Origin: Clostridia bacterium
GTDB lineage: Bacteria > Bacillota > Clostridia > Christensenellales > Aristaeellaceae
Direction of reading: 5' to 3'
Assembly (NCBI GenBank): GCA_017433405.1
Contig: JAFRHH010000067.1
Location: forward strand, 1 to 54,672
DNA: 54,672 bases
Shown here: piece by piece, positions 2,093 through 8,023 of the stretch
Position numbering within the stretch: position 1 is the stretch's first letter
Layout of the letters: each line of letters starts with the position of its first letter
The notes under the pieces: generated by a model
What the model was told of the DNA's origin: nothing
What the model saw: only the letters and a program-made list of their open reading frames with translations
Databases searched by the model: none
Program-made: the position numbers and the translations under genes

Positions 2093-5000
2093 TCAGCGGA
2101 CGCCGAGCACCAGATGATGGCCGTCCGCGTTGCGGGTCCGGAGGGTCTGCAGCATCCGGAGGCCGGATTCGCCGTTCGGGGTCCGGTAGGCAAAGGAGAA
2201 GGTGAAGGGCGTTCCGTCCTGCGCGTACCGGAAGAGATGATCCCGGGTCAGCACGTTCCGGGCGGCCGCCTCCTCCTGGGGCACGATGCCCTCCAGCAGG
2301 ATCGTATCCAGACGGTCGAAGAAGCCGGCGCCGTCCGGCAGAATCCGCAGCTCTCCCTCCGGGCCGGAGGAAAACTCCAGATAGTCTCCCGTCAGCATAT
2401 CCACGTACTCAATCTTCGTAAAATCGTAGGTCAGGGATTTGGTAATGCTGGGGAAGGATTTGACGTTCCGCTCCCGGGGCAGGGGGCGGCTGTCGCCCCG
2501 CTCGACGAGGAACCGATCGAAGTCCTCCGGGGGAACGGGCTTTGAGAAGTAGTAGCCCTGAATCAGGTCGCAGCCCAGGGCCTTGAGCACCATCATCTGC
2601 TCCCGGGTTTCCACGCCCTCCGCCACCACGGGCACATGGAGATAGTCGGCGATATCGATAATCAGCTCGATCATCCGCACGTCCCGGGTTTCCCCGAAGG
2701 CGCTGCGGACAAAGGTCATATCCAGCTTCAGCACATCGATCGGCAGGGTCGTCAGCATGCCGAGGGAGGAATAGCCGGTGCCGAAGTCGTCCATCTCAAT
2801 CCGGAAGCCCAGATCGGATTCCCGCAGCTCCCGGGCCATGGAGATGATCCCGGAGGAATCCCCGGTGTAGGCGGATTCCGTTACCTCAAGGATCAGATCC
2901 TCCGCCGTCAGATGCCAGGTATTCAGGATGTTTCGGAAGATCCCCTTCAGATCCGGGGCGAGCATATCGATCCGGGAGACGTTGACGGAGACGGGAATAG
3001 CCGCGCCGAAGCGATCCTTCCAGGCGCGGATCCGGGCGGCGGCCTCCCGCCAGACAAAGGTATCCAGATCCAGGATCAGTCCGCTTTCCTCCAGCAGGGG
3101 GATGAACATGGCGGGGCTGATCATGCCGAGCTCCGGATGATCCCACCGGACCAGGGCTTCGGCGCTGGAGAGAACCGGATGATCGCCGCGGATATCGAAC
3201 TTCGGCTGATAGTATACCTTAAACCGGTTGTTTTCCAGGGAGGAGCGGAAATCGTTCAGCAGCCGGTCCCGGTAGAGGGAGCGCTGATGCAGGGCGTCGT
3301 CGTATTGCCCGATGGTCTGGACGTGGCTGCCGCGGACGGCGTCCGCCGCCATCTTCGCCCGGTCGAAGCGACGCTCCGTCTCCAGGGATTTATCCACGCA
3401 GGGATAGATTCCGAGACGGAGGCGAACCGGCGCGGCGCTGCCCTCCTCCCCGGACAGGCCTTCGGAGAGCTGGTTCAGCAGGGACTCATAGCTGTCCCGA
3501 TGGGGACAGTAGAGCAGGAAGGCGTCCGCTCCCCGGTGGCAGGCGATGCCGCCGATTTCCCTGGCGGCATGGCGCAGGTTCCAGCCCAGGCGGCGCAGGA
3601 CGCCGTCGCCGTATTCCTTGCCGCTGCGTTCGTTGATCATATGGAAGTGATTGACGTCCACATAGACCGCGTCCATGACCATGTCCGGATAATGCCGGTC
3701 ATAGATCTGGACATAGCGGAGGAAATAATCCATATTGTACAGGGTGGTCAGGCTGTCCCGCTCCGTGAACTGAATCAGCGCCCGGGTTTCGGACAGCTCG
3801 ATGCACTTGTTGATCCGGGCCCGGATGATTTCCCAGTCCGGATAGGGCTTGGACAGGAAGTCCATGGCGCCGAAGCGGAGGCACTCGACCTCGGCCTTCT
3901 GGTCCGCCGTCAGGACGATGACCGGAATCTTCCGCAGGTCCGGATCCGCGCTCAGGGAACGCAGCACCTCCAGCCCGTCCATCCGGGGCATCCGGAGATC
4001 CAGCAGCACCAGGGCGATATTCTCCCGCTGCTTCCCGATGAGATCCAGGGCTTCCACCCCGTCCTCGGCTTCGAGAACATCATAATCCTCCCGCAGCCCC
4101 TCCGCCAGCATCATCCGGTTGATGGCGACGTCGTCGGCGATCAGGATGGATTTGCGCAGATTCATGACGGAGGCGGGATCCATCGGAGGCTGCTCCAGGG
4201 TCGGATTCTGATCCCGGCTGACGGAGCCGAGGCCCTTGAGCAGCTGCTTTTCCTCATACATGAGCTCATCCGCCCGCTGGAAGACCGTATGGAAGCTCAT
4301 ATCCTCCTCCGGGTTAAACCCGGACAGGCCGCCGGAAACCACGACGCCCCCGGCGCTGATATTGGCGACGGACCGGTCGTGCAGCAGCTTCATCAGCAGG
4401 CTGCGGTTCTCGTAATCCCTGCCCGTCAGGATCGCGACGAACTCGTCGCCGCCTGTCCGGTAGACCGGGCTGTGGCTGAAAATCTCGCAGATCAGGGCGG
4501 AGGCGTTCTTAATATATTCGTCCCCGGCCTTGTGGCCCTGGGTATCGTTGATATACTTAAGCCCGTTCACGTCGCAGACGGCGACGGCGAATTCCGGCGG
4601 CTCCACGCCCCCCTCCCCGGCGATGGCGGCGTCCAGCTCCTTCTCCCGGACCAGATAGGCGTGCTTGCTCTTGACGCCGGTCATCGGATCGACGTTGGCC
4701 AGCGCTTCACTCTCCCGGGAGCGGTGATTCATATAGGACTGATTGGTCAGCATGATAAACAGGGCGAAGCCGAACATCCCCAGGGTGATCAGGATCGTTC
4801 CGACGTTCTCCTGCTCCAGATGCTTCAGCTGCTCCTCCACGTACCGCTCGTCCTGGATCCGCTGGTGCTCGGGAATCTCCGAGCTTTCATAATAAGCCTG
4901 AACGTTATGAACCATCCGGTCGTTGGCGGCGATCATCGACTGGCGCATCCAGATGACGGAAACCAGCAGCACCAGGGAGAGCAGCGCGATCCAGACCACC

Positions 5001-6415
5001 GTCGAGGTTCCGAAGCGGCGCTCCTGATCCCGGTGGATGATGGTGCGGAAGTAGATAAAGCCCAGCAGCGTCCATACGGCGAAGAGGAAATAGGTTTCCC
5101 GCTCCAGGGTGCCGTGGGAGATCAGGTTGGGGATCAGGATATACAGCCCGATGGCCAGCATGATCCCCAGGCTGACGAGGGCGATGATCCGCTCCGAACG
5201 ATTCTGGCGGAGGCGGGCGGTTTTCGCCGCGGCGGCGGAAACGAAGCCGTAAATCAGCACGGCGCCGATGGTCGTAACGTCGACGATCCAGCCGATCGCG
5301 ACGCGCCCGACGAAGGGAACGGCCAGGGAGACGGCGGCGATGAGGGCGATGGCCCGGGCGGGAATGCCCCGGCCGTTGAGCTCCCCGAACCGGGGCGGAA
5401 GCACCTTATCCTTTCCCAGGGCGTAGAACAGGCGGGAGAGCGCCATGGTCAGCCCGATCAGGCTGGAAAGCACCAGCGCCAGCAGGGACGCCATCAGCAG
5501 GAAGACACCGAAGCTTCCCAGGTAGTGGTTCGCGGCGTAGAAGGCCGGGAAGGCGGCCAGCCCCTGCTGGTTTTTCAGATCCCGGATGTATTCCAGCCAG
5601 GAGCCGTACTGCGCGGGATAGGCCGTTACGGACAGGAGCGTCACGAGCCCGTAGAGCAGCGTGATGACCGCGATGGCCATTACCAGACAGCGGAACAGGC
5701 AGGTGTTTTTGAATTTCAGCTCCTCGGCGCTGTGGGAGACGCTTTCAAAACCGACGAAGGCCCAGGGGGAGATAATGGCGATATCAAGGATCTGCTTGAG
5801 GGCGGAGGTATCCGGGGTGAAGGCGGGAGACAGCGATCCCTTCAGGCTCAGGAAGGAGCCCAGGAAGGCGGCGAGGATGCCGAGCACGAAAACCCCCACC
5901 AGCACCGTCATCAGCATCACCGGCCCTTTTTTGCTCCGGATACACAGAAGAGCGGTCATCAGGATGACGGCCATGGTCAGCAGGGTTTCCCCCAGATAGA
6001 CATCGTAGCCGAACAGGGTATACATCTTCCCGAACTCGAAGAAGGGGCCGACGAAATTCCGGAAGAACAGCGGAATCGAGGTGGCGTTGGCCCAGAGAAT
6101 CGCCAGATAGACCAGGGCCAGGAACCAGCCGGTCAGGAACCCGTGATCGTGGCTGAAGGACTCCCGGGCGTAGGTATAGGCGCCCCCGGCGTCCGGATAG
6201 ACCTGCATCAGATAGGCGTAGCTTCGGCTGATGAGAAGCATGATCAGCCCGCCGATCACCAGTCCGAGCACGCTGCCGAGGGGACCGGCTTCGGTAAGAT
6301 AGGTGTTGGCTGTCACCACCAGGGAACCCCAGCCGACGGCGGAACCCACCGCAAAGGCAAGGAACTGGGGCCTGGACAAAGAGGGAGCCAGCTTCCGGGA
6401 AGGATTGGAGGACAT
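2093..6415 (-). CDS. APC permease fused to GGDEF-REC-GGDEF*-EAL (cyclic-di-GMP signalling)
   Basis: The product is about 1440 residues. Residues ~12-460 form an amino-acid/polyamine/organocation permease of about 12 membrane helices. One more helix (~470-492), a ~45-residue outside loop and a final helix (~537-557) follow. GGDEF domain 1 (~575-735) has an intact GGDEF at ~655-659 and no RxxD inhibitory site. The receiver domain (~754-872) keeps acidic pair D761/D762, phospho-acceptor D806 (LLDLRMPRMDG), T836 and K856. GGDEF domain 2 is degenerate (HRGADAF). The EAL domain (~1050-1305) keeps EALVRW, EVTES, DDFGTGYSS and VAEGVE, so it should be active. A C-terminal ~120 residues is PAS-like. 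ATG 6415 is preferred (AGGTG five bases upstream) over GTG 6424. Known: GGDEF makes and EAL degrades cyclic-di-GMP. Inferred: substrate transport or binding controls turnover of the messenger. No REC-partner kinase is adjacent. Confidence 0.9.
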   Translation of the reverse strand: MSSNPSRKLAPSLSRPQFLAFAVGSAVGWGSLVVTANTYLTEAGPLGSVLGLVIGGLIMLLISRSYAYLMQVYPDAGGAYTYARESFSHDHGFLTGWFLALVYLAILWANATSIPLFFRNFVGPFFEFGKMYTLFGYDVYLGETLLTMAVILMTALLCIRSKKGPVMLMTVLVGVFVLGILAAFLGSFLSLKGSLSPAFTPDTSALKQILDIAIISPWAFVGFESVSHSAEELKFKNTCLFRCLVMAIAVITLLYGLVTLLSVTAYPAQYGSWLEYIRDLKNQQGLAAFPAFYAANHYLGSFGVFLLMASLLALVLSSLIGLTMALSRLFYALGKDKVLPPRFGELNGRGIPARAIALIAAVSLAVPFVGRVAIGWIVDVTTIGAVLIYGFVSAAAAKTARLRQNRSERIIALVSLGIMLAIGLYILIPNLISHGTLERETYFLFAVWTLLGFIYFRTIIHRDQERRFGTSTVVWIALLSLVLLVSVIWMRQSMIAANDRMVHNVQAYYESSEIPEHQRIQDERYVEEQLKHLEQENVGTILITLGMFGFALFIMLTNQSYMNHRSRESEALANVDPMTGVKSKHAYLVREKELDAAIAGEGGVEPPEFAVAVCDVNGLKYINDTQGHKAGDEYIKNASALICEIFSHSPVYRTGGDEFVAILTGRDYENRSLLMKLLHDRSVANISAGGVVVSGGLSGFNPEEDMSFHTVFQRADELMYEEKQLLKGLGSVSRDQNPTLEQPPMDPASVMNLRKSILIADDVAINRMMLAEGLREDYDVLEAEDGVEALDLIGKQRENIALVLLDLRMPRMDGLEVLRSLSADPDLRKIPVIVLTADQKAEVECLRFGAMDFLSKPYPDWEIIRARINKCIELSETRALIQFTERDSLTTLYNMDYFLRYVQIYDRHYPDMVMDAVYVDVNHFHMINERSGKEYGDGVLRRLGWNLRHAAREIGGIACHRGADAFLLYCPHRDSYESLLNQLSEGLSGEEGSAAPVRLRLGIYPCVDKSLETERRFDRAKMAADAVRGSHVQTIGQYDDALHQRSLYRDRLLNDFRSSLENNRFKVYYQPKFDIRGDHPVLSSAEALVRWDHPELGMISPAMFIPLLEESGLILDLDTFVWREAAARIRAWKDRFGAAIPVSVNVSRIDMLAPDLKGIFRNILNTWHLTAEDLILEVTESAYTGDSSGIISMARELRESDLGFRIEMDDFGTGYSSLGMLTTLPIDVLKLDMTFVRSAFGETRDVRMIELIIDIADYLHVPVVAEGVETREQMMVLKALGCDLIQGYYFSKPVPPEDFDRFLVERGDSRPLPRERNVKSFPSITKSLTYDFTKIEYVDMLTGDYLEFSSGPEGELRILPDGAGFFDRLDTILLEGIVPQEEAAARNVLTRDHLFRYAQDGTPFTFSFAYRTPNGESGLRMLQTLRTRNADGHHLVLGVR

Positions 6416-6438
6416 ACGTTTCACCTGACCTTGGCGTG

Positions 6439-7272: not shown

Positions 7273-7324
7273 AAAAATACAAATTCAGAACAAAGAGAAA
7301 CGGCCAGAAATGAGGTGCAGCCAG

Positions 7325-8023
7325 ATGACGGAATTAAACCGAGGAATCATGAATTTTCGGAACACCCCGGGCGCCGTGCTCGTTGATCTTCGCGACAAGG
7401 AAGATTATGATCGTGGCCATATTCCCGGCGCGGTTCACAGCTCGCTGGGGAATATCCGGGAGGAAGTGATGCGGATCGCCCGCTTTTCCACCCCGATCTA
7501 TCTTTACTGCTATTCCGGAAACCGGAGCGTTCAGGCGGAATCCCTCCTGCGGAGCAAGGGATATGAAAAGGCGGAGGCGCTCGGGAGCGTCGGCGCCTAT
7601 AACGGGACGCTGGAGGGGCCCCGGATGTCGGTCAAGGAGCTGCGGGAGAAAATGGGGATGACCCAGGCCCAGTTTGCCGAAGCCATCGGAACCTGCAACG
7701 CGACGGTCGGACATTATGAAACCGGCCGGATGGAGCCCAGCCTCCGGATCATGGAAAAGATCCGGAAGACCTTCGGGGCGGAGATTCTGGTTTCCGGGAA
7801 GAGCGCCGATGCCTCCCGGGTGATCGAGCAGCGGGACGGGATGACGATCCGCGAGCTGCGGATGAGCCGGGGCCTGAGCCAGATGGATCTGGCCCGGATG
7901 CTCGGGTGCAGCCAGGGGCTGATCGGCCACTATGAGACGGGCCGGGTCAAGCCCAGCGCCAAAATGCTGAGGAGGATCCAGGATGTTTTCGGGGTCTCCG
8001 TCAGCGGTCAGTCGGCGGAATAA
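7325..8023 (+). CDS. rhodanese domain fused to two XRE-type HTH domains
   Basis: The start is placed at ATG 7325 because GAGGTG sits seven bases upstream; an in-frame ATG at 7310 is the alternative. Residues ~1-98 are a rhodanese domain with active-site loop CYSGNRS (Cys ~62), which in this family carries a persulfide. Two helix-turn-helix domains follow: ~101-155 (MGMTQAQFAEAIGTCNATVG) and ~173-230 (RGLSQMDLARMLGCSQGLIG). Both end in the same HYETGR motif, so the second is probably a duplication of the first. Inferred: a DNA-binding regulator that reads sulfane sulfur or redox state through the rhodanese cysteine. The next gene is a CxxC redox protein, which fits. Autoregulation from the AT-rich upstream region is possible. 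Confidence 0.85.
   Translation: MTELNRGIMNFRNTPGAVLVDLRDKEDYDRGHIPGAVHSSLGNIREEVMRIARFSTPIYLYCYSGNRSVQAESLLRSKGYEKAEALGSVGAYNGTLEGPRMSVKELREKMGMTQAQFAEAIGTCNATVGHYETGRMEPSLRIMEKIRKTFGAEILVSGKSADASRVIEQRDGMTIRELRMSRGLSQMDLARMLGCSQGLIGHYETGRVKPSAKMLRRIQDVFGVSVSGQSAE

Follow-up and report, generated by a model that had tools for sequence, protein, structure and literature searches.

A probable transporter-derived receptor joined to cyclic di-GMP synthesis and breakdown in one polypeptide of a Clostridia bacterium

The stretch of DNA analysed here, called the window, is contig JAFRHH010000067.1 (54,672 nucleotides) of a Clostridia bacterium (assembly GCA_017433405.1; Christensenellales, Aristaeellaceae). 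On its minus strand, a single gene at positions 2093..6415 encodes a protein in which an amino acid-polyamine-organocation (APC) permease is joined to domains for the synthesis and the breakdown of cyclic di-GMP (c-di-GMP). The fused protein is probably a transporter-derived receptor, a transceptor, that controls c-di-GMP; we infer this class purely from conservation and evolution. On balance we also lean towards a wider interpretation, namely a large receptor family in gut Bacillota (plus records labelled Coriobacteriaceae and Atopobiaceae) that is undescribed in the literature searched. Its permease, without the proton-coupling Glu of GkApcT and perhaps with a sodium site, would be a sensor that can be swapped between outputs, namely c-di-GMP cyclases, HD-GYP phosphodiesterases and hybrid kinases; in the present protein, nutrient occupancy and a phosphorelay would govern how much c-di-GMP is made and broken down by one and the same chain.

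The gene runs as one unbroken frame from an ATG at 6415 to the stop at 2093 (1440 codons, 1440 aa), with AGGTGA five bases 5' of the ATG and an alternative GTG start at 6424. Pfam assigns AA_permease_2 to residues 14-432 (E 1.9e-32), GGDEF to 573-724 (2.1e-28, two stretches), Response_reg to 757-864 (3.7e-22) and EAL to 1054-1293 (2.2e-60), all four matches exceeding the curated cut-offs. A first-pass annotation made from the letters of the window had proposed a single polypeptide with permease, GGDEF, receiver, degenerate GGDEF and EAL domains. The open frame and the order of the Pfam matches confirm this, and the frame holds no internal stop between permease and GGDEF, an interruption which that annotation had named as one possible objection. 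All listed domains were found again; a C-terminal domain of about 118 aa had been missed, and the strand had not been stated.

The same domain order, for which a survey had been proposed, was sought in named genomes with an 18-sequence profile. At least 593 stretches were found, 590 were confirmed, and the best 80 were kept for all locus counts (loci carry our own L numbers). The main genes of these loci comprise 36 full fusions, 40 genes with permease and GGDEF only and 2 permease-HD-GYP fusions; the remaining two are cut by a contig end (L135) or spread over two frames (L086). One full fusion, of 1326 aa (L074), comes from a contig of 3.86 Mb whose record title reads Lachnospiraceae bacterium AC2029. 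The assembly of the window is fragmented (2.53 Mb in 92 contigs, 89% complete), which could favour a chimera or a frame artefact, but the recurrence of the order in 36 of 80 loci, one of them on so long a contig, shows that it is not an assembly accident, and with the uninterrupted frame the probability of an artefact becomes negligible.

The permease core (residues 14-456, helices 1-12; 5048..6376, minus strand like all following parts of the gene) is delimited by PF13520, by hydropathy and by an alignment of residues 18-456 with GkApcT, a bacterial CAT homologue (6f34/5oqt) among the nearest solved relatives. PF13520 scores 113.2 bits (cut-off 27) and PF00324 86.2 bits (cut-off 24.6) on the membrane part. 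Since family models and solved members match across the core, this part is an APC permease as judged from its sequence. Hydropathy averaged over 74 relatives, which are the 74 of 79 permease-GGDEF sequences in alignment A2 (L068, L069, L109 and both L122 genes omitted; most are 46-66% identical to the window protein), gives 14 membrane helices instead of the 12 counted before. Helix 13, an outer loop that is acidic and variable (~50 residues) and helix 14 follow the core (residues 474-558; 4742..4996), their placement resting on hydropathy and charge averaged over the relatives. Lys and Arg are enriched in the loops predicted to face inside, which places the first GGDEF domain (GGDEF1) in the cytoplasm.

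Ligand-site positions were derived from the GkApcT alignment and the contacts listed in PMC5803215. Gly44, Phe231, Ala232 and Asp237 of GkApcT correspond to Gly30, Trp218, Ala219 and Glu224, the latter being the acid of transmembrane helix (TM) 6, and all four are kept in 74/74 relatives; AdiC also has Trp at the Phe231 position (PMC5803215). GkApcT binds L-Ala through backbone contacts with its amino and carboxyl groups (PMC5803215). Thr43 corresponds to residue 29, which is Trp in 73/74. The pocket is thus changed and may be unable to accommodate an ordinary amino acid. This Trp in place of a small residue, together with the variable acidic loop connecting helices 13 and 14, a potential binding site for a partner, would suit a receptor whose pocket has shifted to another ligand class, such as a peptide, an amine or a partner protein. 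Such a ligand seems rather unlikely to us, as the backbone positions that make these L-Ala contacts in GkApcT (PMC5803215) are conserved.

Acid at Glu115 and Lys at Lys191, by which proton coupling of the GkApcT type is recognised, are both missing from the permease. The equivalent of Glu115, residue 102, is Thr in 56, Ile in 10, Val in 6 and Ser in 2 relatives and acidic in 0/74, and TM5 (170-189), the region of Lys191, is free of Lys and Arg in 73/74, L132 having a Lys at 170. TM8 carries Thr/Ser-Ser at residues 317-318 in 74/74, where we presume the hydroxyls of the LeuT Na2 site to lie; residue 318 is Gly in the kinase-linked rows shown. The ligand site therefore looks conserved but altered, with coupling in the manner of GkApcT gone and perhaps replaced by sodium. 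The first-pass annotation had made its proposal depend on the substrate-binding residues of the core: the backbone contacts and the aromatic and acidic residues of TM6 are indeed kept, whereas the equivalents of Glu115 and Lys191 are not.

These positions bear on the question whether the protein is simply an active transporter, in which amino-acid uptake persists and flux, or feedback of c-di-GMP on uptake via the attached domains, is the function. The complete APC core with its invariant TM6 acid would allow this, the residues at 317-318 could form a LeuT-like site for another coupling ion, if our placement holds, and histidine transport is combined with a kinase in CbrA (PMC13022988). Transport by GkApcT is lost or weakened in Lys191 variants and in Glu115Gln while recognition of alanine persists, but mammalian CATs have Ser at the Glu115 position and transport nevertheless (PMC5803215), so the missing Glu does not prove that transport is lost. 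For the same reason the absence of both residues only weakly favours substrate occupancy over proton-coupled flux as the signal. As the outputs attached to this permease also swap among cyclase, phosphodiesterase and kinase, which is sensor-like, we assign active transport a low probability, comparable to that of a non-amino-acid ligand.

The joint between helix 14 and GGDEF1 (4688..4741) reaches from Asn558 at the helix end to Asp576. In 74/74 aligned relatives it has one of two lengths, 18 residues in 26 proteins, the window protein being of this kind, or 25 in 48, a difference of one heptad. Among full forms the shorter joint is found in 22 of the window protein's permease group and the longer one in 12 of the other full group. 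Five GGDEF forms outside the alignment have 18 or 25 residues in four cases, as judged by eye, and one could not be measured. A step of one heptad is what would be expected from a continuous coiled coil between helix 14 and GGDEF1. In ten kinase-linked relatives, the stretch between helix 14 and the phospho-His box is of constant length in the alignment as printed. PadC resembles this arrangement in its sensor-to-GGDEF helix of mostly heptad-wise varying length, its sensor being a photosensor and not a permease (PMC9587094).

Residues of the cytoplasmic domains were counted in alignment columns of 37 full-length proteins, the window protein included. GGDEF1 (residues 573-724; 4244..4699; Pfam and alignment) keeps the GG[D/E]EF motif and the metal and GTP residues in 37/37, in agreement with its earlier description as active-looking. 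The position of the inhibitory RxxD site, which we take from PleD, holds Phe/Tyr646 and Ser649, and the site is absent from all 37 proteins. The receiver (residues 757-864; 3824..4147; Pfam and alignment) is intact, as had been claimed, with Asp806 and Lys856 in 37/37 and Thr/Ser836 and Asp762 in 36/37. It has the acidic pair, Asp, Thr/Ser and Lys of a phospho-accepting domain and is predicted to be one. The second GGDEF domain (GGDEF2; residues ~871-1040; 3296..3805, limits placed from the alignment) is degenerate, again as first described. The motif Glu is present in 0/37 proteins, the window protein reading GADAF, and Asp920 and Asp964 are kept in 37/37, compatible with a putative regulatory GTP site. 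The EAL domain (residues 1054-1293; 2537..3256; Pfam and alignment), likewise described as intact, carries the complete predicted phosphodiesterase set of E(A)L, N, E, DD, K, E and Q. Its catalytic columns are unchanged in 36/36 rows with letters; the row of L119 has none there, as this truncated full fusion stops at its contig end.

The C-terminal domain of ~118 aa (residues 1323-1439; 2099..2449) is present in 21/36 other full forms. It gave no Pfam match at E up to 5 and no credible relative among solved structures, with one match at E 0.54. A PAS identity was not supported, as neither Pfam nor hhalign against the PAS-bearing stretches of neighbouring kinases returned a match. Domains of this type recur in c-di-GMP enzymes and hybrid kinases (L107:10021-11211, L121, L087), the first of which has three in tandem.

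The history of the parts can be followed in trees, all computed at a quick setting with Shimodaira-Hasegawa-like approximate likelihood-ratio test (SH-aLRT) support. In a tree of 101 permeases, from which L044-L047 (on contigs shared with L075 and L064-L066) and permease matches <380 residues were omitted, all 14 kinase-linked permeases stand on one side of a branch (support 100). For the full forms this tree requires 7 label changes, of which starred branches force at least 4. The phosphodiesterase halves of fused proteins fall into a single clade (100), which contains 37 of them and the two-frame L086. Topology tests of permease and GGDEF1 used 73 rows (the 74 of A2 minus the long-branch L116_10373), classed the short gene L133 among the full forms, and relied on two full groups named after the first trees had been seen; on this basis, a permease tree constrained to a single clade of full forms was rejected (lnL 447 lower, p_AU 0.0009, approximately unbiased (AU) test). 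The permease and phosphodiesterase halves thus have discordant trees. The GGDEF1 tree groups all full forms (93.7), as strict joint descent of GGDEF1 with the phosphodiesterase half would predict, but such descent was not accepted, since the alternative survives at p_AU 0.12.

The simplest account of the discordant trees would be an output that stayed in place while the permeases ahead of it were swapped. Within the permease clade, outputs comprise GGDEF, HD-GYP (2 loci) and histidine kinase (HK) with one or two receivers (HK-REC or HK-REC-REC). These comparisons show that the permease together with helices 13-14 is conserved as one unit among the relatives and is attached to different outputs; with its heptad-stepped joint and discordant trees it appears to evolve like a plug-in sensor. 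No ligand is known, and the permease might act as a membrane anchor that positions the enzymes and brings about their dimerisation independently of any ligand. We consider this improbable, given that the ligand-site positions are invariant or nearly so in the 74 relatives, that the joint is stepped by heptads and that the parts are exchanged as units.

Genes beside the short forms indicate how the two enzymatic halves may have come together. A same-strand REC-GGDEF*-EAL gene lies within 1 kb of 16/42 short genes (the 40 mentioned above plus a second, short gene in each of L116 and L122) compared to 1/36 full genes (L070; Fisher p 0.0002, nominal because the rows are related). With >2 kb of sequence on both sides the ratio is 13/31 to 1/23 (p 0.0017, nominal). 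The contrast points to a fused protein whose C-terminal half takes the place of a separate REC-GGDEF*-EAL partner gene, and in which a permease-input cyclase is joined to a receiver-input phosphodiesterase. Since permease-GGDEF and REC-GGDEF*-EAL are separate neighbours elsewhere, each half would have its own input. The earlier proposal of a two-signal protein that makes and breaks the messenger is thereby supported in part, as it fits the split neighbouring genes.

From these data the following mechanism can be proposed. An extracellular amino-acid-like ligand would bind the APC site between helices 1 and 6, and the resulting motion would be relayed by helices 13-14, continue along a dimeric coiled coil and reach GGDEF1, altering c-di-GMP synthesis. 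The permease may no longer perform coupled transport. Phosphorylation of the receiver by a separate kinase would tune the breakdown of c-di-GMP by the EAL domain, the antagonist half with an input of its own, while GGDEF2 may have a regulatory role through GTP binding and a third input may come from the C-terminal domain. One polypeptide would thus balance synthesis against breakdown from two signals.

Several observations weigh against this proposal, besides the altered pocket and the transporting mammalian CATs discussed above. Of the linkers in phytochrome cyclases, 54% show length differences that are multiples of seven and 38% a difference of -4 (PMC9587094), so off-heptad linkers occur around PadC, and a heptad step indicates a coiled coil but does not prove signalling. 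In the GGDEF1 tree, movement of GGDEF1 with the permease was not rejected (the p_AU of 0.12 given above). Adjacent kinases are no commoner beside full forms (7/36) than beside short ones (7/42), which speaks against a kinase partner specific to full forms, and no kinase was found beside the window gene among the neighbouring genes or by Pfam on ten window proteins. No PilZ protein was found in the 89%-complete genome, with controls matching. Searches for c-di-GMP-I and -II riboswitches were uninformative, as the control sequences themselves gave no match; an Rfam scan of the window returned no match.

The SLC5-STAC histidine kinases CbrA and CrbS, which are termed transceptors, unite a nutrient transporter and a signalling output in one chain (PMC13022988). 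The fused protein shares this combination of bacterial transporter fold and output and by analogy may work likewise. It differs in having an APC core and c-di-GMP synthesis and breakdown instead of an SLC5 core, a STAC bridge and a kinase. An SLC5-STAC identity was discarded, as in Pfam at E up to 1 the membrane part matches only the two APC families and a STAC match is missing. Sensor fusions of Amt to kinase or GGDEF domains are a case of an ammonium-transporter fold serving as receptor; they are distinguished by the Amt fold, the ammonium ligand and the lack of a receiver-EAL half. The CAT/SLC7-type GkApcT has the ligand backbone positions and the TM6 motif in common with the window permease, which differs by lacking Glu115 and Lys191, by Trp for Thr43, and by two extra helices, an outer loop and cytoplasmic domains. 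The C-terminal half is related to REC-GGDEF-EAL response regulators, which are encoded separately beside short permease-GGDEF genes and are here fused behind a permease-coupled cyclase. In 5TMR/S-component sensors a transporter-like fold acts as receptor for PAS, GGDEF, EAL or kinase outputs (PMC11109136), the fold being that of an ECF S-component and not APC. Among the open-licence PMC papers found by full-text searching, no title or abstract opening describes a fusion between an APC permease and c-di-GMP enzymes.

If the receptor interpretation is correct, a common transporter fold has evolved into a modular receptor that serves three or more kinds of output. The change from transporter to receptor could then be tested with natural variants in outputs, sensors, split and fused forms and the heptad joint. 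It would also link amino-acid-like nutrients directly to c-di-GMP in Clostridia of the gut and rumen, for which, in our judgement, little is known about the inputs to this messenger.

Five genomes of the same genus hold full forms 56-65% identical to the window protein. Matches were obtained in 21/45 genomes of the genus (E 1e-3, weak matches included), at least 72/300 of the family (E 1e-70) and 4/398 of the phylum (E 1e-90, the window's own included). Record titles among the loci name rumen and gut Clostridia, Lachnospiraceae, Erysipelotrichaceae, Coriobacteriaceae and Atopobiaceae, labels which may be wrong for binned genomes. Among the family matches listed, two open frames <700 aa (642 and 579) reach query residue 555, as judged by eye, and may represent a stand-alone member of the permease clade.

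The same genome encodes a paralogue of 1120 aa, in which a permease unit 40% identical over residues 18-571 of the window protein is fused to HisKA-HATPase-REC-REC. Beside it on the same strand lie a REC-GGDEF*-EAL gene (47% identity to residues 755-1313 of the window protein) and an HK-REC gene, the whole cluster occupying one strand of contig 71 (G000, L011:3568-10588). At L096:5971-8337 and L138:5977-8355 permeases of the same clade are fused to an HD-GYP-type HD domain (Pfam HD_5), at L086:6220-9846 a full-type gene is split over two frames, and L116:2610-12709 contains three sensor permeases in tandem, one kinase-linked, one full and one permease-GGDEF. In the window itself, positions 7310-8023 encode a 237-aa protein with a Rhodanese domain followed by two helix-turn-helix domains.

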